37,307 nucleotides of DNA from a virus. The DNA lies in the IMG/VR virus record IMGVR_UViG_3300042473_000106, positions 1 to 37,307 of that record. One strand, given 5' to 3'. The translations under genes were made by a program, and so were the position numbers. Shown here piece after piece: positions 4,702-37,307 of the stretch. The notes under the pieces were generated by a model, which worked only from the letters and a program-made list of their open reading frames with translations, made no database searches and was not told the DNA's origin. Within the stretch, counting starts at the first letter, position 1. Every line of letters begins with the position of its first letter.

Positions 4702-7700
4702 GTGTCTGATGTAAATGCTAATATTGGTATACATTTTGACACTAGTGATGCTCTCGCTCAACTAAGAAGGCTTCAGGCTGGACTTAGTAGATTCAACCAA
4801 GCCTTAACAGAAGGCAATGTCGCTGCTGCAAACGCACAAAAGGGTTTAAATTCACAACTCATGCAGTCGATCAATGCTACTGGAAAGTTTGTAGCATCAC
4901 AGAAAACCATTGCCTCAAGCACCACAGCGTTCACTGATTCCCTAGAAAAGAATAAGTTGAGCATGGGTCAGTACTTTAGGTACACGGCTGCTGCAGCAAC
5001 AATGAACAGCAAAACCTTAAAAAATGTTTTTGCACAAGAAAAAGATGTCCTAAAGAGGGCAATGAAAGATAGAGTTAAAACTCTACAAACACAATATGTT
5101 CAACTAACAAATGCCAACGGAGAGTTTGTAAAAGTTCTTCAGGTTGTTCCAAAGCATCTTAAAATGGTCAATGGTCAGTATGCTGACTATGCCACAAGAA
5201 CTCAGATGGCTGCTCAAAGACAGCAATTCTTAAATCAACTATTAAAGCAAGGATCAACTCAACTCCTAAACTTTGGTAAGAATACTCAGTGGGCTGGTCG
5301 CCAGTTGATGGTTGGTTTGACTATTCCTCTTACAATTCTTGGTTCTACAGCAGCCAAGGTGTTTCGAGAAATGGAAATGGCAACTGTAAAATTTACAAGA
5401 GTTTATGGAGACATGACCACAGGTATTGGTGATACCGATAAAGCAGTAGCAGAAATTCAGTTACTTGCAAAAGAATTTACAAAGTTTGGAATTGCTGCAA
5501 AAGATACAATGGAAATGGCAGCATCTGCTGCTGCAATGGGTCTTCAGGGTGCAGAACTACAGGCACAAGTTACGCAAGCAACAAGACTTGCTGTCCTTGG
5601 TCAAGTAGAACAAGCCCAGGCACTAGAAACAACTATATCCCTTCAGAATGCTTTTGGTGTTTCTGCAGACCAACTTGCAAGTAAAATTAACTACCTTAAC
5701 GCAGTTGAAAACCAAACAGTTCTATCTATTGAAGATTTAACAATTGCAATTCCAAAGGCTGGTCCAGTTGTAAAGCAACTTGGAGGATCTGTAGAAGATC
5801 TTGCATTCTTTATGACTGCAATGAAGGAAGGTGGAATCAACGCATCAGAAGGCGCTAACGCACTCAAGTCTGGTCTTGCATCCATGATTAATCCATCCAA
5901 GAAAGCAAGTGAATTTTTAGCGGGACTTGGAATTAATATTAAGGGTCTTGTTGATGCCAATGCTGGAGATCTAAAAGCAACCGTAGTGGGATTTGCAAGA
6001 GCACTTGACACACTAGATCCGCTTAACCGTGCAAGAGCAATTGAGCAGATGTTTGGTAAGTTCCAGTTTGCTCGTTTATCAGCATTATTCCAAAACATAA
6101 CAAAAGATTCTTCACAGGCAGCAAGAGCACTTGGACTTGCAGGAGCATCAGTTGAAGAACTTGCGATCTTATCTGAACGAGAATTAGGCAAGGTAGAAAA
6201 TGCTGTTGGAGTAAAGTTCCAAAAGCAACTTGAAAATGTTAAACTACAACTTATCCCTATTGGAAAAGCATTCCTAGAAGCAGTAACACCAGTTGTTCAA
6301 TTTGCCGCAAAAATGCTAGAAAAGTTTAACAATCTTAGCGATGGAACAAAAAAGTTTGTAGTTGGATTTGTTGGAGTAATTGGAGGAATTGCTCCAGTTG
6401 TATTGATGACAGTTGGTCTTGTTGCTAACGGTGTTGCAAACCTTATCAAGTTCTTTGCAATGCTTCGTAGTGGAGTTGCAAAACTTAATGGACAAAATAA
6501 TGTTCTCGGTGGCGGTTTTGATTATCTAACTCAAGCAGAAACAGAAAACCTTGCACAAACTCATGCACTTCATTTATCTCATAAAGACTTAATTTCAACA
6601 TTCAATGTAGAAAAGACATCGGTAGATGCACTCGCTGCAGCATATCTAAATGCAGCATCACAGGCTAGAGCGCTTGCTTCTGGTTCTCCAGCATTATTTA
6701 ACACTGTTCCTGGACCAAAGGGTGCAGTATCTGGCTTACCAAAGTTTGCAGATGGAAAAGTTCCAGGCAATGAGTCTGCAGGAGACAGCATACTTGCACT
6801 AGTTGCACCAGGAGAAACAATTGTTCCAACTGCACAGTCAAAGAAATATGGGCCACTACTAAAGGCTATAATGGGAGATGATCTTCCAGGTTTTATAAAA
6901 GGTAGAAGATCTCTCACTGCTGACCAAGACTCCTTTGTTCAACAAACATCAAGAATTACTCCATCGCAACCAGGAGTTGCTGATGAAATGGCAAAACAAT
7001 TAGAATTTATTAACAAGGCCTCTGCAGAAAATTTGCTTGCATATGCAAAAGCAACTGGAAGAACAGTAACAGATGCTAGTTCAGCATCTCTTGAGGAAAT
7101 AAGAAGATCTCTTGTAGCAAGCGTAAAGGATATATTTACTACTGTTGCTACCGCAGCAAGAGAAAAGGGAAAGACATTAACTGTTGCTGCTGTTAAGGCT
7201 GCAACTAAAAAAGAAGGAACTGCAGGACCAGATGCAAGCGTCCACCAGTTTTACAATCCAAGAGCAAAGCAGCAACTAGGAAGACAGTTTTCACATGGTG
7301 AAACATCTGACTCTGTACCAATTGATCAATTGTCTAAAACAGTAACTATCACACATGAAAAAACACAATCAGACCTTTTAAATATTCAAAGAGCAATTGA
7401 TGCAAGTAATGCAAAAAATGGAACGAATGTTCCAATGCCTACAGCATCTCCAGTTAGTGGTTTTGGGTATGCTCTTCAAGGCCAAGTAAACAAAGCCATG
7501 GCCGATGGTGCTCCAGAGATACAAAATTTCAAAGGTGTTAAAGGTAACACGGTTGCAACAGTTGATGCTTTCCTTGAAGATTTTCAAGACTCTGGTGTTA
7601 CTAAGTGGGCAGACACAGTTAGAATTGGTGGAGGAAACTTTGAAAGATTATCTGGAGCAATTCAAGAGTATGATAGTCGACTACTATCAGCAGTTCAGCA

Positions 7701-10700
7701 ATGGAAGCAGAACAACCCAGGTAAAACATTTACAGATGCAGATTTCCAATCTATTGAACAGACTGTGCGTACTCAAGTTGCTGGTATAGATACTGAACTT
7801 GGTCAAGTTCTTGCAAAGGCAAGAGAGGTTGTTACAGGAATAAGACTCCACATGACTAAAGAACAAAGAGATATTGCTAATGCAGACGCTGTATCAAGAG
7901 GAGAAAAAAACTCTGATGGTGTAGCGTATAGTGCTAAAAATCCAAAATATGATGAAGGAAGATCAACATTCCAAGCAGGTGGCACAGAAAGAAGAAACCA
8001 AGAAGGAGTTGGAAGATTCTCTAAAACAGTATCTGATGATTTAACAGAAGCAGAAAGAATTTCAGAAACACAGTCACCATCAAAGAGAACTGAAAGACTT
8101 GGAGTTAACATTGGAGAAGGACTAAGAATTGGTCTTGAAAGAAAAACAAAAGAGGTAAAGTCTCAAGCAGATCAACTTGCAGAAGCAGCAATTCCAAAGG
8201 TAGATACTGCAAATCAAGCAAAGTATGATGCTATGAAAAATGATCCAGAGCAAAGACAAATTCAGAAGTCTATCGATAGACATTACAGGGATAAGTTTGG
8301 ATCTAAAAAGGTACCAGTTCCAACATCAAGCGAATCAACCGATACATCAGTAACAGTAGATATTGATCCTAAAGCATTAATGTCTGATATGTCTGCAATA
8401 AAGGCTGCTAGACAAAAAGCAAAACAATTAGAAAAAGAAGCATCTGATGCAGAAGCAGCAGCAGCAAAAGTTAGAACCGAAGCAGCAAAATGGGAAGAGG
8501 TTGCAGCCCGTGAAGGTGGCAAGAACATGCACACTGCTGAGAATGCTAGAGACCTTAAGAAACTGGCAGATGAAGCAGAAATTAGAGCAGCACAAGCCAG
8601 AATAAAAGCAGCCGAAGCAGCACAAGCAGCAGCCGAATTAGAAGGTGGTAATGGTAGTGCAGAACAAATAATTCAAGATCCAGCAAAAACTCCAGCAAAG
8701 GTTAAGAAAGCACGGAAAGTAATTGCTCAAGGAACACAAGAGCAAGGCGATGGACTAAAACGAATTGTTGAGGGTACAGAAGATACAGCAGACTCAACAG
8801 TACTAGTTGCAGACCAAACAGATGAGATTGCAACAGTGACTGGAGATATTATTCCAGCACAAACAGAAAATCTAGACAGTGTAATAACAACAGCATCATT
8901 AAACGATGCAATCGTAGGAACTACTGGAGACCTTCATGGCTCTACAATAGACACAGCAATGTCTCAAGAAGAAATAGTTGCACAGCAAGAACGAGAAAAG
9001 TTTTTAAGAGAGCAAATGAATGGAGAACTTGCAAAGCAAAATGCTGCTCTTGCAGCAGGCAGCGACCTTAGCCAAACAGGTAAAAAGAGATACACTGAAC
9101 AACAAGCACTAGCCGAAGCATACGGTGACGGTACTGCAGAAAACCCAGGGTACACCATGGACAAGAAGGGACACTTACTATTTGATCCAGAATTAGATGA
9201 AAATGGCAAGAAGCAACCAACAACCATGACTGAAAAGCAAATCAAAAAGAAGAAGCGTGGCATGCGTAGAGAAAAGGTTGGTAAGTATTCTGGTAAAGCC
9301 ACTGGCGCACTAGGTATGGCAACGATGGCAGCAGGAGCCATGGGAGCGCCACCACAGGTAACTGCAGCACTTGGAACAGCAGCAACAGTTGCTCAGTTTG
9401 CACCTATGCTTGCAGGTATGGGTCCAGTAGGTTGGGCTGCAGCAGGAATTATGGCTGTAGGTGCAGGAGCATACATGCTAAATCAGCACTTTAATAAGAT
9501 GGCTAAAGAAGCAGCAAAGTTTGCAATATCTACCTCAGCAACAAGAGAAGGCATGGTTAAGTTGGGCGAATTGACTGGCAAAGTCGGAGCGTCTCAAATA
9601 ATGGATCGTCGTAGAAGAACAACTCAATATAACAAGTACAGTGACTCTATTAAGATGGACACTACATTTGGAAACAAGTATATGAAAGACCAACAAGGAA
9701 AAGATACAAAAAAGGTATTCAAAGAAACTGTTAAGAAAATGGGAATTGAGCAAGCAACTAGTGACCTATCACTTAAACTGGCTGCTCAAATTGCTGACGG
9801 GGTAATTGATAAAGACGAGGCAGAATCAATTGCAGCATCACTTGCACTTTCATTAAAAGATCAAAGCATTGAAATGCAGGTCACTGGAAAACTAAGAACT
9901 CTTATTGGTCCAGACGGTGAAGACCTAAAAGATAAACCACTAAAGACAAGACTGCTTCTTGTTGCTACAGCAAGACAACGAAGTGAAAAACAACTTAAGA
10001 CTATAGACGCCAAAAAAGCAAAGGGTGAATCTTTAAGAAAAGACATTGCAATGCTTGCTGCATATAATGTAAACAACCTAGAACTTGCCACAATGATTGC
10101 TGATCAAGTTGAAAATGAATTTGAAGTTCAAAAGAAAAAACTTGAAATTGAAATTGCTTCAACAACAAACTTACAGAAAAAACTAGAGTTAGAAGGAAAA
10201 CTTACTAAACTCAATGAAGATAATGCTGCTAACCAAGAAAAAACTAGCCAAGCAATTTTAATGAATATTGCTCAAACAGAAATTGACTTTCAAAAGTTCT
10301 TTAGTGATACTGGTTTTGGGCCACAATCAACTCGTGAGGATGCATATTTTGATGCATCTAGAGGAACCGTAACTGAAGCATATAAGGGTACAGCACAAGA
10401 AAAAGAAGCAGAAAAATTCTTGAAAAATACAGCGCTATTGCAATCTGGCGCTGAAAGAGGTATTTACAATGAAAAGTCAATGACCTATAAAAAGAATGGT
10501 CTAGGTACAGAAAGAGCAGCCCAAACCTTCCAAGCAAAAATGGAAATGCTAGTAGGAAGTAAAGCAATTGGTCCAGACGAAGCAAACGCATGGATGAAAC
10601 TCTTTAGTGGAAAACTAAATGAACTAGATTTAGCAATTAATACAAGCATTAAACAAAATGGTCTAGGAAAGACTAAAGAATTATTTGCGATGTTTGAAGG

Positions 10701-13700
10701 CTTTACAAATAAAAAAGCAGCAACACAGATGATTCAAGAGATCTTATTAACTAAAAAAGATCCAACGCAGTTTGATGCAATTATGGAAACTCTTGCTAAC
10801 CTTAAATCTTTAGATGGAACTGCAATTGATATGCAAGTTCTTGTTAGTGCGATTGGCTTACCAGGTGTTGAAAAATTACAGGAAGAAATGGCAGCCATTG
10901 AAACAAGAAAAGACGAACTAAAGAAAAAGGGCAAAAAGTTTGATCTAAAAGAAGAAGTAAAAGTTGCTGGAACTTCTAAGGCAGCAATCGAAGAACTGAT
11001 GAATAACGAAGAACAAAAAGCAAAATTTGATAAGTTAGATGTAGAGCAGCAAGCAGATTATTTAACAAAGTTAGCAGGAGCCTATGCATCTCAAACACAA
11101 ATGAAACCTGAAATCCTAAAACTTGAAGCAGAAAATCAAGCAAAAACTCTTTTATGGCTGGAGGGAGCAAAAGAGACAGATGCAGATTATCAAGAAAAAC
11201 TAGCAACATATATTACCAAGTACTTGTCCAAAGCCGCTCCAGAACGAACAGTAGATTCTTTAGCATATCTTTTAGATCCAACCATTCCAGTAAAAGGTGC
11301 AACAAGTACAACTACAACGACTACAACAGAAAGAGACACAACTTACGATGAATTAAATAAGCGTCTTAGAAATGTTCGTAACTCTGCTATCGATGCAGCA
11401 GGTGGATTTAAAGAACTTCAAAGAGCAATTGCAGCAACTGGAAGTAAGGCTATTGGAAACAAGTTTAAGGGTCTTGAACAACAGTTAATTCAAATGGGCC
11501 AGACTAGCCAGTTTACAGACTACCTTGCTGGCCTTGACACAAAAGACTTAAAGAAGTTTGCTTATACAGCAACTGCTGCAGATGTAAAAAAGAAAAAAGG
11601 TAAGCAAAAGTATACTCAGGTAGATCCTGAAACTGGCAAGATGGTTACAAAGTATCAAAAGTTTAAGGCAGGAGATACTGTTCTCACCCAAAAGGGTAGA
11701 GATATGGAGCAGGGATATAAGAAGGCTATTATTGGAGATTACAATAAGGCACAACTTCAATCTGTAACTCTGGCAAAGCAGGAAATTGCAGCAAGAGGAA
11801 AACTGCTTGCTCTTGGTTTTGATGAACTAGATATTCAGACAATGCTTGCAGATGAAAACTATAAGACTCTTATTGCTACAGGTAAGGTAACAAAAGCAGA
11901 ACTAGAAACAAATGCTGCTCTAACTAAGCAGGCAAGAATTAGAAACCAGATCAACGGAGCAGTTGCTGGACAAAAGGATTTGCAGAAGACTGCAGATAAT
12001 CAAAAGAGAATTCCAGAAGTTGTAAAGATGATGCAGGATGGTGGAATGAGCGCAGAAGCAATACGTGCAGCCATCACCGACCCAGCAATGCTAGATACTC
12101 TGATTAACGGAATGGATAACTTTGGTACTCTTGCAAAAGATGCTCAGGATGAGTTTAATCATTTGCTTTCACAGATAGAAGATATACCAGAAAGAAAAAT
12201 TATTGAAATTGTGTTTACTCAAACAAGAGAAGAAAAGATAATTAATGCTGCAAATGCAGCAGCAGAAATGTTTGATGCTTACAAAATGATTGATGAAAAC
12301 ACGCTAACAAATGCTGAAGGAAACACTTTTGCTGGTCTTCAAGTTAAGATAGAAGATCTAAACAATCAGTCTAAGATTGCACAAAATGCTATTAACCTAA
12401 CTCAGTCTAAGATTGATGACATGCAAAAGGAAGTTGAGGCAGATCAACGAAAGATTGAAGAAGACTTTACCAGACCAATTGAAAAGAAACAAAGAGAGAT
12501 CGATAAGTTAACAAGAAGTGCTGAACTTAACTTTACTAGACCAATCCAGGCTTTACAAGAAAGATCTGCAGTACTATCTCATGACTTAGATGTCATGAAC
12601 AAGGCTGCAGAAGCAATTAATGAAAAATATGATAAACAACAAGAAGCCCTCACAAAAGTTGCAGAAATTAATCAACAAATTATTAGTCAGCAGCAACAAC
12701 AACTTGGTTTGGCAGATGCTCTTTCTCAAGGAGATATTTCAGCAGCAGCAAAAGCAGTACAAGAAATGCGATCATCTAATGCAGCAAACTATGCAACTAA
12801 TGCACAAGATGCTTTGCAAAAGGCAAGAGAAAACGAAGTGGGAGGTCTTCGTGGTGGCGTCAGCGGAAAGTCTCAGAAAGAAATTGAGGCAGAGCAGTGG
12901 GACATTAGCCAAAAGACTTACGACCTAGAACTCAAAAAGGCTGCTGTAGATAAACAAATTCTTGAAATCCAAGACTCTATATATGCGCTAGAGCAATCTA
13001 GACAGATAGCACTTGATGCGATCCAAGTTAAGACAGATGCTATTGCTAAGATTACATTTGGAACATTACTAGATCAACAAAACAAACTTAAGGCAATTAA
13101 TGACCAGATGCTTCCTCTTCAAATGCAAAGTGATTTACTTGCAAACTCTATACGTGATAACGACAGAAATAGAATTATTCAGGGTCAAACAAGAGAGCAG
13201 TGGGACCTAACACTAAAGGCTGCACAGGCTGCAGAAAAACTTGCAAAGGGAGATCTTGCAACAGCACTTGCTGGAGTTAACTCGGTTTCTGGAACAATAA
13301 AGGGAGCCTGGGATTCTATTAAGTCATCCTATGATGATATTAAAGATAAGTCTATAACTATAACACAGCACATAGTTACTACCTATGGTCCAGCACTTGG
13401 TTTGCCAGATCCAAATGCAGGTAAGCCAGATCCAAATGCAGGTAAGCCAGATCCAACTAAGGCACCAGGAGCAGCATGGGTTTCTGACGGTAGGGGTGGA
13501 TGGAAGAAGCCATATAAGCCTACTGGAGATTATGGTTGGGATGATAATAAAGGTTGGGTTAAGGGATATTATGGCTCTACCGTTCCAGTTACAAAAACTG
13601 GAGGGACAAATGATTCTGCTTCAGAAGTAAACCTTAGAGCAGCAGCACTTCTACAAACAAAAGCAGAAACAGAAAGATTAGCAAAAGAAGAAGAAGCAAG

Positions 13701-14082
13701 ATTAGCAGCACTTGAAAAACAAAGATTACAAAATGCTGCAAAAGCAGAGGGTCTAGCAAAAAGATATGGTGGATTCGTTGGTATGTCTTCTGGTGGTTTA
13801 GTTCCTAAATATTTTGCAGAAGGTGGATTTGCAAGAGGAACTGACACAGTTCCAGCAATGTTAACTCCAGGGGAATTTGTAATGAGTAAGTACGCTGTTA
13901 ATTCTTATGGGGTTGAAAAAATGAAAGCAATTAATTCAGGCACAAGCGTAGGAGATTCAGTGTATAATTATAACCTAAGTGTTAATGTCAAGTCTGATGC
14001 AAACCCAGATCAAATTGCTAGAACTGTCATTGCACAAATTAAGCAGATAGACTCACAAAAAATAAGGGGGACTAGAATCTAA
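4702..14082 (+). CDS. Tape measure protein (giant, TP901-type core)
   Basis: This 3126-residue protein sets tail length and is ejected with the DNA. The start is GTG 4702; a nearby ATG at 4695 leads to a stop after four codons. Residues ~185-475 form a TP901-type tail tape measure core (WAGRQLMVGLTIPLTILGS, then an Ala/Gly-rich helical region). A hydrophobic segment follows at ~549-585 and a longer one at ~1534-1593, candidates for membrane insertion. Coiled-coil regions occur at ~1230-1310 (Ala/Glu/Lys-rich) and ~2546-2740, the latter with a repeated FTRPI motif. A threonine-rich linker lies near 2200. The C-terminal ~110 residues carry the common end motif GTDTVPAMLTPGEFVMSKYA. A similar motif, GDSILALVAPGETIVP, also occurs near residue 694. 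No peptidase or lysozyme domain is evident. Confidence 0.95.
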   Translation: MSDVNANIGIHFDTSDALAQLRRLQAGLSRFNQALTEGNVAAANAQKGLNSQLMQSINATGKFVASQKTIASSTTAFTDSLEKNKLSMGQYFRYTAAAATMNSKTLKNVFAQEKDVLKRAMKDRVKTLQTQYVQLTNANGEFVKVLQVVPKHLKMVNGQYADYATRTQMAAQRQQFLNQLLKQGSTQLLNFGKNTQWAGRQLMVGLTIPLTILGSTAAKVFREMEMATVKFTRVYGDMTTGIGDTDKAVAEIQLLAKEFTKFGIAAKDTMEMAASAAAMGLQGAELQAQVTQATRLAVLGQVEQAQALETTISLQNAFGVSADQLASKINYLNAVENQTVLSIEDLTIAIPKAGPVVKQLGGSVEDLAFFMTAMKEGGINASEGANALKSGLASMINPSKKASEFLAGLGINIKGLVDANAGDLKATVVGFARALDTLDPLNRARAIEQMFGKFQFARLSALFQNITKDSSQAARALGLAGASVEELAILSERELGKVENAVGVKFQKQLENVKLQLIPIGKAFLEAVTPVVQFAAKMLEKFNNLSDGTKKFVVGFVGVIGGIAPVVLMTVGLVANGVANLIKFFAMLRSGVAKLNGQNNVLGGGFDYLTQAETENLAQTHALHLSHKDLISTFNVEKTSVDALAAAYLNAASQARALASGSPALFNTVPGPKGAVSGLPKFADGKVPGNESAGDSILALVAPGETIVPTAQSKKYGPLLKAIMGDDLPGFIKGRRSLTADQDSFVQQTSRITPSQPGVADEMAKQLEFINKASAENLLAYAKATGRTVTDASSASLEEIRRSLVASVKDIFTTVATAAREKGKTLTVAAVKAATKKEGTAGPDASVHQFYNPRAKQQLGRQFSHGETSDSVPIDQLSKTVTITHEKTQSDLLNIQRAIDASNAKNGTNVPMPTASPVSGFGYALQGQVNKAMADGAPEIQNFKGVKGNTVATVDAFLEDFQDSGVTKWADTVRIGGGNFERLSGAIQEYDSRLLSAVQQWKQNNPGKTFTDADFQSIEQTVRTQVAGIDTELGQVLAKAREVVTGIRLHMTKEQRDIANADAVSRGEKNSDGVAYSAKNPKYDEGRSTFQAGGTERRNQEGVGRFSKTVSDDLTEAERISETQSPSKRTERLGVNIGEGLRIGLERKTKEVKSQADQLAEAAIPKVDTANQAKYDAMKNDPEQRQIQKSIDRHYRDKFGSKKVPVPTSSESTDTSVTVDIDPKALMSDMSAIKAARQKAKQLEKEASDAEAAAAKVRTEAAKWEEVAAREGGKNMHTAENARDLKKLADEAEIRAAQARIKAAEAAQAAAELEGGNGSAEQIIQDPAKTPAKVKKARKVIAQGTQEQGDGLKRIVEGTEDTADSTVLVADQTDEIATVTGDIIPAQTENLDSVITTASLNDAIVGTTGDLHGSTIDTAMSQEEIVAQQEREKFLREQMNGELAKQNAALAAGSDLSQTGKKRYTEQQALAEAYGDGTAENPGYTMDKKGHLLFDPELDENGKKQPTTMTEKQIKKKKRGMRREKVGKYSGKATGALGMATMAAGAMGAPPQVTAALGTAATVAQFAPMLAGMGPVGWAAAGIMAVGAGAYMLNQHFNKMAKEAAKFAISTSATREGMVKLGELTGKVGASQIMDRRRRTTQYNKYSDSIKMDTTFGNKYMKDQQGKDTKKVFKETVKKMGIEQATSDLSLKLAAQIADGVIDKDEAESIAASLALSLKDQSIEMQVTGKLRTLIGPDGEDLKDKPLKTRLLLVATARQRSEKQLKTIDAKKAKGESLRKDIAMLAAYNVNNLELATMIADQVENEFEVQKKKLEIEIASTTNLQKKLELEGKLTKLNEDNAANQEKTSQAILMNIAQTEIDFQKFFSDTGFGPQSTREDAYFDASRGTVTEAYKGTAQEKEAEKFLKNTALLQSGAERGIYNEKSMTYKKNGLGTERAAQTFQAKMEMLVGSKAIGPDEANAWMKLFSGKLNELDLAINTSIKQNGLGKTKELFAMFEGFTNKKAATQMIQEILLTKKDPTQFDAIMETLANLKSLDGTAIDMQVLVSAIGLPGVEKLQEEMAAIETRKDELKKKGKKFDLKEEVKVAGTSKAAIEELMNNEEQKAKFDKLDVEQQADYLTKLAGAYASQTQMKPEILKLEAENQAKTLLWLEGAKETDADYQEKLATYITKYLSKAAPERTVDSLAYLLDPTIPVKGATSTTTTTTTERDTTYDELNKRLRNVRNSAIDAAGGFKELQRAIAATGSKAIGNKFKGLEQQLIQMGQTSQFTDYLAGLDTKDLKKFAYTATAADVKKKKGKQKYTQVDPETGKMVTKYQKFKAGDTVLTQKGRDMEQGYKKAIIGDYNKAQLQSVTLAKQEIAARGKLLALGFDELDIQTMLADENYKTLIATGKVTKAELETNAALTKQARIRNQINGAVAGQKDLQKTADNQKRIPEVVKMMQDGGMSAEAIRAAITDPAMLDTLINGMDNFGTLAKDAQDEFNHLLSQIEDIPERKIIEIVFTQTREEKIINAANAAAEMFDAYKMIDENTLTNAEGNTFAGLQVKIEDLNNQSKIAQNAINLTQSKIDDMQKEVEADQRKIEEDFTRPIEKKQREIDKLTRSAELNFTRPIQALQERSAVLSHDLDVMNKAAEAINEKYDKQQEALTKVAEINQQIISQQQQQLGLADALSQGDISAAAKAVQEMRSSNAANYATNAQDALQKARENEVGGLRGGVSGKSQKEIEAEQWDISQKTYDLELKKAAVDKQILEIQDSIYALEQSRQIALDAIQVKTDAIAKITFGTLLDQQNKLKAINDQMLPLQMQSDLLANSIRDNDRNRIIQGQTREQWDLTLKAAQAAEKLAKGDLATALAGVNSVSGTIKGAWDSIKSSYDDIKDKSITITQHIVTTYGPALGLPDPNAGKPDPNAGKPDPTKAPGAAWVSDGRGGWKKPYKPTGDYGWDDNKGWVKGYYGSTVPVTKTGGTNDSASEVNLRAAALLQTKAETERLAKEEEARLAALEKQRLQNAAKAEGLAKRYGGFVGMSSGGLVPKYFAEGGFARGTDTVPAMLTPGEFVMSKYAVNSYGVEKMKAINSGTSVGDSVYNYNLSVNVKSDANPDQIARTVIAQIKQIDSQKIRGTRI
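13405..13458 (+). repeat. 21-base tandem repeat inside the tape measure gene
   Basis: Two identical 21-base units (ccagatccaaatgcaggtaag) at 13405-13425 and 13426-13446 are followed by a third, diverging copy that matches for ten bases. They encode PDPNAGK-PDPNAGK-PDPTKAP, a proline-rich linker. The linker leads into a Trp/Gly-rich segment with two GW.K.Y-type repeats just before the C-terminal motif of the protein. Confidence 0.85.
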
Positions 14083-34635: not shown

Positions 34636-35158
34636 AGATGATTTAGTTAAGCACCTAGACCAAGTTAATCTTGTTGTAGAAGAATACTTAAAGGGTAACG
34701 ATCCAACAGTAATCTCAAAGCAGTTAGACATACCAAGACAAAGAGTTGTTACACTTATTAATGAGTGGAAGGTTATGGCATCTGCCAACGATGCTATTCG
34801 TGCTCGTGCAAAAGAAGCACTCGCTGCAGCAGACACACACTACAGTAAGTTAGTTTCTCGAACATACGAAGTTATCGATGAGGCATCAATGACAAACAAT
34901 CTTAGCGCTAAGACTGCTGCGATTAAACTTGTTATGGATATTGAGTCTAAGCGCATTGATATGTTGCAGAAGGCTGGTCTTCTTGAAAATAAAGAACTTG
35001 CTGAAGAGATGGTTGAGATTGAGCACAGACAAGAAGTCCTTATTAATATACTTAAAGATATAGCAACAGAGCACCCAGAAATTCGTGATGAGATTATGCG
35101 TAGGTTGTCTAGGATATCTAAAGACGATGAGGTAATAACAATTGTCCACGAAGTTTAA
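34625..35158 (+). CDS. terS: Small terminase subunit (probable)
   Basis: This 177-residue protein has an N-terminal HTH (VVEEYLKGNDPTVISKQLDI, then PRQRVVTLINEWKVM) and a long helical body (AKTAAIKLVMDIESKRIDML), ending with a charged C-terminus. This is the usual form of small terminases, which recognise packaging sites in the genome. The gene directly precedes the large terminase and overlaps its TTG start by seventeen bases. AGGG upstream of ATG 34625 serves as ribosome binding site. The subfamily is not recognised, but order and architecture are convincing. Confidence 0.75.
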   Translation: MSTEDDLVKHLDQVNLVVEEYLKGNDPTVISKQLDIPRQRVVTLINEWKVMASANDAIRARAKEALAAADTHYSKLVSRTYEVIDEASMTNNLSAKTAAIKLVMDIESKRIDMLQKAGLLENKELAEEMVEIEHRQEVLINILKDIATEHPEIRDEIMRRLSRISKDDEVITIVHEV

Positions 35159-36926
35159 TGAATTCTTAGAGGTTCTTAAAAATAACAACTTTGAAGAAAC
35201 TCCAGTAGATGCAAAGACATTTGTTGAGTCAGCATCTTATTTGGGCCAACCACCGCTATCAGATATTCAGTATGACATTGTTGAGGCGATGAGCCAGATC
35301 TATCGTAAAGAAGATTTGATAGATATACTAGGAGAAGAAAAAGGAACCCAGTACTATAATAAGTACACAAAGAATGAGATTATTCTGCAACTTGGCAAGG
35401 GATCTGGAAAGGACTTTACATCAACCGTAGCATGCTCATACATCGTATACAAACTTCTATGCTTAAAAGACCCAGCAAAATATTTTGGTAAGCCCTCTGG
35501 AGACGCTATTGACCTAATCAATGTTGCTATTAACGCTCAGCAGGCAAAGAATGTTTTCTTTAAAGGATTTAAAACAAAGATTGAAAAGTCCCCATGGTTT
35601 GCTGGAAAGTATAATGCTAAAGCAGACTCGGTAGAGTTTGATAAATCAATCACTGTTTACTCTGGACACTCAGAAAGAGAATCGCATGAGGGTTTAAACC
35701 TTTTACTTGCAGTACTTGATGAGATTTCTGGTTTTGCATCTGAAGTTGGAACAGGCAATGAGCAGGGTAAGACTGCTGATAATATCTACAAGGCTTTTCG
35801 TGGATCAGTAGACTCCCGTTTTCCCGACCTTGGCAAAGTTGTTTTGCTTTCATTTCCAAGATATCCAGGGGACTTTATTTCAGAAAGATATGATGCAGTT
35901 ATTGCAGATAAAGAAATAATTGAAAGAACGCATGAGTTTGTAATCAATCCACTTCTTCCAGATACAGACCCAAGCAACAAGTTTCAAATTTCCTGGGATG
36001 AAGATCAAATCATTTCATACAAATATCCAGGAGTATTTGCATTAAAGAGACCTACATGGGAAGTAAACCCAACAAGAAGCATTGATGATTTTAAGATTGC
36101 GTTTATGACAGACCTTGGAGATGCCATGATGCGCTTTGCATGCGTCCCAACTTTTGCTTCAGATGCATTCTTTAAGCAAGCAGAAAAGGTAAGAGCATGC
36201 ATGACTCTTCGTAATCCAATAGACAATTTTAGAAGGTTTGACGAAGCATTCAAACCAGATCCAACTAAAAAGTATTATGTTCACGCTGACCTTGCACAGA
36301 AGCACGACAAATGTGCAGTTGCAATTGCCCATGTAGAAAAATGGGTAAACATACAGGTAATTAACAACTACGAACAAGTAGCACCAATTGTAGTAGTAGA
36401 TGCAGTGGCATGGTGGGAACCAAAGATTGAGGGTCCAGTAAATCTTTCAGAAGTAAAGCAGTGGATCCAAAATCTTAGAAGGCTTGGGTTTGATATTGGA
36501 ATGGTTTCATTTGACCGTTGGCAATCATTTGATATTCAAAATGAACTTCAGCAAGTTGGAATGAGAACTGATACTGTTTCTGTTGCCAAGAAGCACTACG
36601 AAGACATGGCAATGCTTGTATATGAAGAAAGACTGGCGATGCCAGCAATTGAACTTCTGTTTGATGAACTAACACAATTAAAGATTATGAAAAATGACAG
36701 AGTTGATCACCCACGCAAAAAGTCAAAGGACTTGGCTGATGCTGTGTGTGGTGCTATTTTTGGGGCTATATCTCATACTCCAAAAAATAACAACACCGAA
36801 ATAGAGATTCATACTTTTAGAGACAGATCTAAGAGTGAATTTGACATGAAAAACGACGGTGTGATACAATATAAACCTATGCCAGATGATGTAAAAGATT
36901 ATCTGGATAGATTAAATCTACTATAA
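35142..36926 (+). CDS. terL: Large terminase subunit (ATPase-nuclease)
   Basis: This 594-residue protein is the packaging motor. Walker A is GKGSGKDFTS (~85-93), Walker B is LLLAVLDEIS (~187-196) and the coupling motif is VVLLSFPRYPG (~233). The nuclease domain has the RNase H-fold acids: D in YYVHADLAQKHD (~381), D in VSFDRWQSFD (~457) and D in KSKDLADAVCG (~532). The start is TTG 35142 with GATGAGG upstream; the ATG in the TAATG at 35156-35160 opens only three codons, and no ATG or GTG occurs before the first conserved segment (LSDIQYDIVEAM). It lies at the right end of the window; portal and capsid genes would be expected next in a standard order. Confidence 0.95.
   Translation: MSTKFNEFLEVLKNNNFEETPVDAKTFVESASYLGQPPLSDIQYDIVEAMSQIYRKEDLIDILGEEKGTQYYNKYTKNEIILQLGKGSGKDFTSTVACSYIVYKLLCLKDPAKYFGKPSGDAIDLINVAINAQQAKNVFFKGFKTKIEKSPWFAGKYNAKADSVEFDKSITVYSGHSERESHEGLNLLLAVLDEISGFASEVGTGNEQGKTADNIYKAFRGSVDSRFPDLGKVVLLSFPRYPGDFISERYDAVIADKEIIERTHEFVINPLLPDTDPSNKFQISWDEDQIISYKYPGVFALKRPTWEVNPTRSIDDFKIAFMTDLGDAMMRFACVPTFASDAFFKQAEKVRACMTLRNPIDNFRRFDEAFKPDPTKKYYVHADLAQKHDKCAVAIAHVEKWVNIQVINNYEQVAPIVVVDAVAWWEPKIEGPVNLSEVKQWIQNLRRLGFDIGMVSFDRWQSFDIQNELQQVGMRTDTVSVAKKHYEDMAMLVYEERLAMPAIELLFDELTQLKIMKNDRVDHPRKKSKDLADAVCGAIFGAISHTPKNNNTEIEIHTFRDRSKSEFDMKNDGVIQYKPMPDDVKDYLDRLNLL
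36841..36870 (+). promoter_or_regulatory. Near-consensus promoter for the secreted-protein gene
   Basis: TTGACA (36841-36846), an 18-base spacer and TGA-TACAAT (36862-36870) sit at the 3' end of the large terminase gene. Initiation near 36877 gives a ~70-base leader holding AAAAGGA as ribosome binding site. This is one of the best promoter matches in the window. Confidence 0.7.
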
Positions 36927-36946
36927 AAAGAAAAGGAATAAATTAA

Positions 36947-37307
36947 ATGAACTCATTTAAGAAAATCGCACTAGCCATGGTTGCAGCCATGACTTTGGGC
37001 ACAATCGTAGCATCACCTGCAAGTGCTGCTGTAATGTCAGTCGCTGTAGAACTTGCTGGAACGGCCAATACAACCGCTTCATCAATCTCAACACCTGCAT
37101 CATTACCAGTCCCTGCAGACAACTCAGTTGACGCTGCTGACGCACTAAAGTTCGTCGCAACTGTTGACACAGGAACAGTAGTTTCTGTAGTAACAACAAA
37201 CGCAACAATCGTGTCTGCACTACACACAACCGCTGCACCAGTAACATCGGCATCAGGCTCTTCAAGCCTAAGCATTGCAACTGGTACAGGAACAACTGCA
37301 ACATTCT
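36947..37307 (+). CDS. Secreted protein with Sec signal peptide (partial, 3' end missing)
   Basis: The frame is open from ATG 36947 to the window end, giving 120 residues. It starts with a basic n-region (MNSFKKIA), a hydrophobic core (LAMVAAMTLGTIV) and an Ala-x-Ala cleavage site (ASPASA, cut before residue ~28). The mature part is rich in Ser, Thr, Ala and Val with short repeated strands (VDTGTVVSVVTTNATIVSA; SSSLSIATGTGTTATF), like secreted beta-sandwich or surface proteins. C-ending codons are common, as in the major tail protein and SSB genes. A near-consensus promoter precedes it. It follows the large terminase, where phages normally carry the portal gene, so it is an unusual insertion. 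I do not recognise the family. Confidence 0.75.
   Translation, partial: MNSFKKIALAMVAAMTLGTIVASPASAAVMSVAVELAGTANTTASSISTPASLPVPADNSVDAADALKFVATVDTGTVVSVVTTNATIVSALHTTAAPVTSASGSSSLSIATGTGTTATF

Follow-up and report, generated by a model that had tools for sequence, protein, structure and literature searches.

A predicted exported protein with Ig-like domains encoded behind the large terminase gene of Stanwilliamsviridae-like phages, and its possible role at the cell surface

The gene behind terL and its product

We analyzed a stretch of viral DNA of 37,307 nucleotides (hereafter, the window; IMG/VR record IMGVR_UViG_3300042473_000106) that ends inside a gene directly following the large terminase gene, terL. 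The original prediction had placed a signal-peptide protein at this position, and the open reading frame is real: it runs uninterrupted from the ATG at 36947 to the contig end, covering 120 codons in the window's ORF list (Table 1). The rest of the gene, which the original prediction had sought, is supplied by a sister contig (L001). There, the complete gene encodes 375 amino acids, and the two proteins are identical at 120 of 120 shared residues. The family to which they belong comprises more than 500 loci.

Table 1. Positions of the features found at the 3' end of the window, with the basis for each
Feature	Position	Strand	Basis
TerL, large terminase subunit; TTG start; last codons hold the promoter of the next gene	35142..36926	+	PHROG 2 terminase, E 1.9e-16; 55% identical to LukeCage terminase
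Promoter within the 3' end of terL: -35 TTGACA (36841-36846), 18-nt spacer, TG, -10 TACAAT (36865-36870)	36841..36870	+	11/12 consensus match
Untranslated leader, inferred start point; RBS AAGGA (36933-36937)	36877..36946	+	Sequence reading; RBS present in relatives
5' part of the exported-protein gene, first 120 codons	36947..37306	+	Cut by contig end; 375 codons in L001:5033-6157
Sec signal peptide, 27 residues, predicted cleavage between ASA and A	36947..37027	+	Rule-based check, 95/95 members; conserved in alignment
First Ig-like domain, start (residues 28-120)	37028..37306	+	AlphaFold model of residues 28-268, pLDDT 91.4, pTM 0.84

The encoded protein is predicted to be exported by the Sec pathway. 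The clean signal and AxA cleavage site of the original prediction correspond to a textbook signal peptide, MNSFKKIALAMVAAMTLGTIVASPASA, with predicted cleavage before the next residue, A. We applied a rule-based check (positive n-region, hydrophobic core, and AxA-type cleavage site), and a signal of this kind was found in all 95 distinct family members. No lipobox, LPxTG motif, or transmembrane segment past the signal was detected in the family members checked, and neither SLH nor any other known wall-anchoring domain was found with Pfam or NCBIfam. An exported protein that has no recognized anchor could simply be released.

The complete protein has a modular layout. In L001, the 27-residue signal is followed by two Ig-like domains (residues ~28-153 and ~154-262), a coiled coil (~265-345), and a constant C-terminus, NALATKWNKKNPKAKVTLLK. 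Among relatives, the length of the coiled coil changes stepwise, for example by 7 or 11 residues. The C-terminus (KWNxKNPKAKV...) is very basic, with a charge of +8 over the last 30 residues. Structure prediction of residues 28-268 yields two beta-sandwich domains that resemble the Ig domains of adhesins (AlphaFold, pLDDT 91.4); a first run with 30 near-identical sequences modeled the Ig part poorly (mean pLDDT 58) and was discarded. The best Foldseek matches are intimin, invasin, InvD, and the S-layer protein SbsC (E 1e-5 to 1e-7), all with a TM-score below 0.5, and the adhesin FdeC gives a weak profile match. Ig folds are generic. The predicted fold also resembles Ig proteins of phage virions, and thus the modeled fold alone does not decide the function. 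The Ig part is under purifying selection that is about three times more relaxed than that on TerL (dN/dS of ~0.21 and 0.07, respectively).

Transcription and codon signals are consistent with strong expression from a dedicated unit. Of the sigma-70-like sites in the final 3.3 kb of the window, the promoter listed in Table 1 scores best. It agrees with the near-consensus promoter of the original prediction, and its layout recurs in relatives: of 91 unique upstream regions, 32 contain TTGACN-18-TAnAnT, compared with 1.2% of random windows, and 67 contain an extended -10 box (TGnTAnAAT). Boxes of the TTGAC or TTGCA type at -35, together with the extended -10, are kept in relatives whose TerL tails differ. 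The predicted 70-base leader likewise fits, as a transcription start near 36877 would leave ~70 nt. Just past the stop codon, 63 of 90 unique downstream regions carry a G/C-rich hairpin and a T run; the stem takes many different sequences. No hairpin scored comparably at 32 other gene ends in the window or in 2000 random windows. The gene downstream usually has its own TGnTATAAT box.

Codon usage matches that of abundant structural proteins, as had been proposed. The exported-protein gene uses AAG for 96% of Lys codons and lacks ATA. AAG reaches 100% in the major tail gene and 76-88% in the major capsid gene, unlike in TerL (54%) and DnaE (63%). The combined signals support a self-contained unit, equipped with a promoter and a terminator of its own, and, probably, strong monocistronic expression.

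A small hairpin of the TTCTG...CAGA type, variable in stem and loop, lies directly 5' of the RBS at several loci of a second phage lineage described below (lineage B; L055, L062, L107, and L141). The same type of hairpin also occurs at some loci of the window's own lineage (lineage A; L052 and L026). It is a possible RNA control element.

Carrier phages and the spread of the family

The region after TerL in this group of phages is accessory. The original prediction had placed the gene in a packaging region, at a position where a portal gene is expected. This placement is wrong: TerL lies mid-genome in the group, and the portal, protease, and capsid genes are located far from it. In Streptomyces phage LukeCage (Stanwilliamsviridae, 133 kb), the portal gene lies ~43 kb upstream of TerL, and an HNH gene and tRNA genes follow TerL. 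One relative (G001) has its portal gene at 112 kb and its TerL at 36 kb. A portal slot or packaging role for the exported-protein gene is ruled out by the order of genes in LukeCage and in two near-complete relatives.

The carriers are Stanwilliamsviridae-like, WhiB-bearing phages of ~115 kb. They have homologous TerL, portal, protease, capsid, tail, and replication genes in conserved order. The likeness to LukeCage extends to a TerL that is 55% identical, collinear structural and replication modules, and the mid-genome position of TerL. WhiB is encoded on every one of seven long contigs from relatives (51-119 kb; five measure 115-119 kb), and the host is thus very probably an actinobacterium. 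We presume, from habitat, that Nanopelagicales are plausible hosts. Isolated Nanopelagicales phages have 39-kb genomes (PMC10202952). Lysogenic conversion was rejected, as no integrase or resolvase family was found among the five genomes examined.

Two further observations concern these genomes. The tape measure protein of the window (4702-14082) is very long, at 3126 amino acids compared with ~2100 in LukeCage. In addition, the 119-kb contig G001 carries a capsid-like gene and its neighbors at both ends, in diverged form (G001:28-858 and 115247-116404). Either the map is circular and its overlap is strain-mixed, or the capsid region is duplicated.

At the window's end, the assembly broke within a gene that is common to many phages. 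Among 76 contigs with a complete TerL of this type, 17 stop within 450 nt after TerL, and 2 start in the 450 nt before it. Breaks after TerL are expected where co-occurring phages share near-identical sequence, and the window is one more case. The exported-protein gene thus accounts for the assembly breaks seen right behind terL in these phages. Misassembly at this end was ruled out, since L001 shares the stretch at 100% identity and the 17 contigs stop similarly.

The family is large and unnamed. In a set of loci picked by TerL similarity alone, and so free of bias toward the exported-protein gene, this gene directly follows TerL at each of the 66 loci that extend far enough to tell; the remaining 10 contigs stop no more than 180 nt past TerL. 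Among these phages, those with a TerL 88-91% identical to that of the window have Ig parts that range from 27% to 95% identity to that of L001. Two kinds of protein occupy the one locus: the two-Ig type and a longer type of 560-590 residues with weak Big_1 similarity. A scan with the C-terminal motif alone recovered 77 new loci, which encode proteins of 329-575 residues with Ig regions as little as 32% identical to that of L001. These proteins keep the same kind of signal and C-terminus.

Database searches returned no named relative. Pfam, PHROGs, NCBIfam, and PADLOC gave no usable match for the exported protein, and the PADLOC models matched none of its neighbors. The Big_1 model (PF02369) did not match the window type, and it scored the long type at 16-18 bits against a cut-off of 34.9. 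Cultured phage records held no relative of the exported protein, its long variant, or the stalk and membrane proteins encoded nearby. Two scans of GTDB genomes with N-terminal seeds, which a variable domain would escape, likewise found no relative. We found no description of the family in the literature.

Variant exchange and co-inherited partners

The Ig part and TerL appear to have separate histories. Their identities are nearly unrelated across 1770 pairs (Spearman rho = 0.14), a sample gathered through the exported-protein gene, so that its medians are biased and its extremes are not. At those extremes, one pair of phages (L064/L111) has TerLs that are 99% identical and Ig parts that are 45% identical, while another (L075/L078) has values of 54% and 93%, respectively.

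Comparison of two lineages suggests that the gene has moved recently. Between the window's lineage (A) and lineage B (G004), 55-65% of fourfold-degenerate sites differ in TerL, DnaE, and RecA. The difference falls to 35% in the codon-biased major tail gene and to 23-26% in the exported-protein gene. Recent transfer of the exported-protein gene is the simplest account. Linkage disequilibrium decays inside the gene, which we read as a sign of recombination within it. Lineage B carries the gene ~16 kb after TerL, behind a secreted subtilase.

In lineage A, the exported-protein gene is followed by an operon encoding a stalk protein, a membrane protein, and, usually, a holin-like protein (PHROG 443, E 0.0036). 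The stalk protein comprises a signal peptide, a head, a Pro-rich stretch, and a hydrophobic region near a basic C-terminus. Its heads differ between phages: PA14 in L002 and L032, PA14 with fn3 in L102, and unrecognized in others. The membrane protein is small (55-75 amino acids), although longer in some phages.

The Ig part co-varies with two of these partners. At loci where the genes are adjacent, rho is 0.79 for the stalk protein and 0.64 for the membrane protein; it is 0.10 for the holin-like gene, which neighbors the membrane-protein gene, and 0.24 for TerL. Physical linkage could explain co-variation of adjacent genes. We therefore tested loci in which the exported-protein and membrane-protein genes are 4-7 kb apart. 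In a first separated set of 7-10 loci, co-variation was 0.62-0.77, while intervening genes gave 0.03-0.37, which was not significant. Across 43 separated loci (4-7 kb), class I proteins pair with class I (9/9) and class II with class II (34/34; Fisher p = 1.8e-9), with class boundaries that were set after the data had been seen. The match is strong at the class level only, as the continuous correlation in these 43 loci is weak (0.15). At 97 adjacent loci, class I proteins occur with class I membrane proteins in 44 of 44 cases, and class II proteins are split 43 to 10. These patterns strongly suggest a functional pairing of the exported protein and the membrane protein, and shared ancestry may contribute to the class match.

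The partner region has several other features. The stalk gene has no ATG, GTG, or TTG where a start is expected (L001:6158-6810, L002:7164-7577, L007, L015, and L045). Loss of the start is only apparent, since the signal peptide is in frame past a strong RBS and ATT or ATC is the likely start codon, suggesting deliberately weak expression. A subtilase-like protease with a signal peptide lies near the exported module (L015:13425-14399 and equivalents; G004:40303-41349). It is 30-60% identical between phages and weakly matches type VII mycosin (E 1.9e-6). A proteasome-subunit-like protein is encoded after the holin-like gene at most loci (L002:9913-10509 and equivalents; Pfam Proteasome, E 2e-5). 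Some phages have a sulfotransferase-like gene inserted between the exported-protein and stalk genes (L015:9152-9940; L010, L013, and L014).

A possible role at the surface of the infected cell

Because the expression and export signals are present, the protein probably acts outside the cytoplasm; the co-inherited exported stalk protein strengthens this reading. Strong expression and export, as originally predicted, are supported by the promoter, terminator, codon usage, and the signal in 95 of 95 members, whereas the portal and packaging premise did not hold. The sequences also support a fixed place, variant exchange, and co-inheritance for what is probably a strong monocistronic unit.

Our preferred reading, which we place just short of an even chance, is that the exported module alters the infected cell's surface, most likely as a means of excluding rival phages. 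An abundant protein would leave the infected actinobacterial cell via Sec and stay at the envelope, where a multimerizing coiled coil and the very basic constant C-terminus would hold it in the wall. Its two Ig-like domains would face outward. Acting with its two co-inherited partners, the membrane protein and a stalk protein with exchangeable heads (PA14, PA14 with fn3, and others), it would change the cell surface such that other phages could not adsorb or inject, by superinfection exclusion or receptor masking. This would explain the trade of variants between phages that share hosts. Wall retention, physical interaction with the partners, exclusion, and a benefit to the phage are steps that we infer. 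Superinfection exclusion was chosen for economy, as a reason for variant exchange. It is also quite possible, if short of probable, that the locus is one of surface exchange, carried by an entire group of abundant freshwater actinophages. A matched, swappable set of the Ig/coiled-coil protein, the stalked head protein, and the small membrane protein would then rebuild the outer surface through variant-specific interactions and be traded among distantly related phages.

Other functions could account for parts of the evidence. The family might stem from an abundant host envelope or S-layer-like protein, with the phage version coating or replacing the layer and its variants exchanged to match host strains, not to combat other phages. 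We regard such mimicry as unlikely: the Ig fold resembles that of SbsC and adhesins, expression is predicted to be high, and the longer type with weak Big_1 similarity sits at the same locus, but GTDB genomes yielded no relative (though N-terminal seeds could miss the variable domain), and WhiB is the sole pointer to a host. Somewhat more doubtful is an adhesive or anti-grazing coat, which would let the infection finish or spread by making infected cells cling to particles or other cells or by shielding them from protist grazers. Heads of PA14 and fn3 on a long Pro-rich stalk look adhesin-like and the variants are swapped, yet such a coat gives no reason for variants to track phage exchange over habitat.

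The neighborhood raises the prospect of a lysis helper, as the partner operon has a holin-like gene and is followed by the secreted subtilase and the proteasome-like gene. The protein would be stored in the wall and, as infection ends, would assist the membrane protein and the next operon's holin-like gene in opening the envelope. This is improbable, since the exported protein carries no catalytic domain and shows no co-variation with the holin-like gene, their promoters and terminators are separate, and lysis does not call for swapped variants. A virion protein, such as an Ig-like decoration or fiber with a signal-like start, is very improbable. Ig-like folds are common among phage virion proteins, and the codon usage resembles that of the major capsid and tail proteins. 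Against this stand the complete signal architecture in 95 of 95 members, a gene position outside the structural module, a separate transcription unit, and co-inheritance with another exported protein.

Freshwater actinobacteria rank among the most numerous bacteria of lakes. To our knowledge, little is known about how their phages affect the living infected cell. A gene that is present in every sampled phage of a group, apparently strongly expressed and exported, and independently exchanged points to competition at the cell surface. The locus allows phage-phage exclusion or surface remodeling to be tested directly.

Known surface proteins offer partial parallels to the proposed exclusion module. 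The Ltp-type superinfection-exclusion lipoproteins of Gram-positive phages, such as that of TP-J34 (PMC3952083), are also phage-encoded, exported, and exposed at the cell surface, the place at which we propose that the exported protein acts against phages. However, Ltp is a lipoprotein of temperate phages, whereas the exported protein has no lipobox cysteine (cleavage is predicted between ASA and A, and the mature part lacks Cys in 93 of 95 members) and its carriers have no recognizable integrase or resolvase. It has Ig domains and a coiled coil with no sequence relation to Ltp and, judged by these features, is not a member of the Ltp family. CwpV of Clostridioides difficile is an abundant, variable cell-wall protein that blocks phage infection (PMC4737114); it is host-encoded and phase-variable, and no sequence relation to the exported protein is indicated. 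Intimin, invasin, InvD, and FdeC, which have Ig domains of the Big_1 type, and SbsC share with the exported protein tandem Ig-like domains on an exported surface protein. Unlike these, the exported protein is phage-encoded and, in place of a beta-barrel or SLH anchor, carries a coiled coil and a basic C-terminus.
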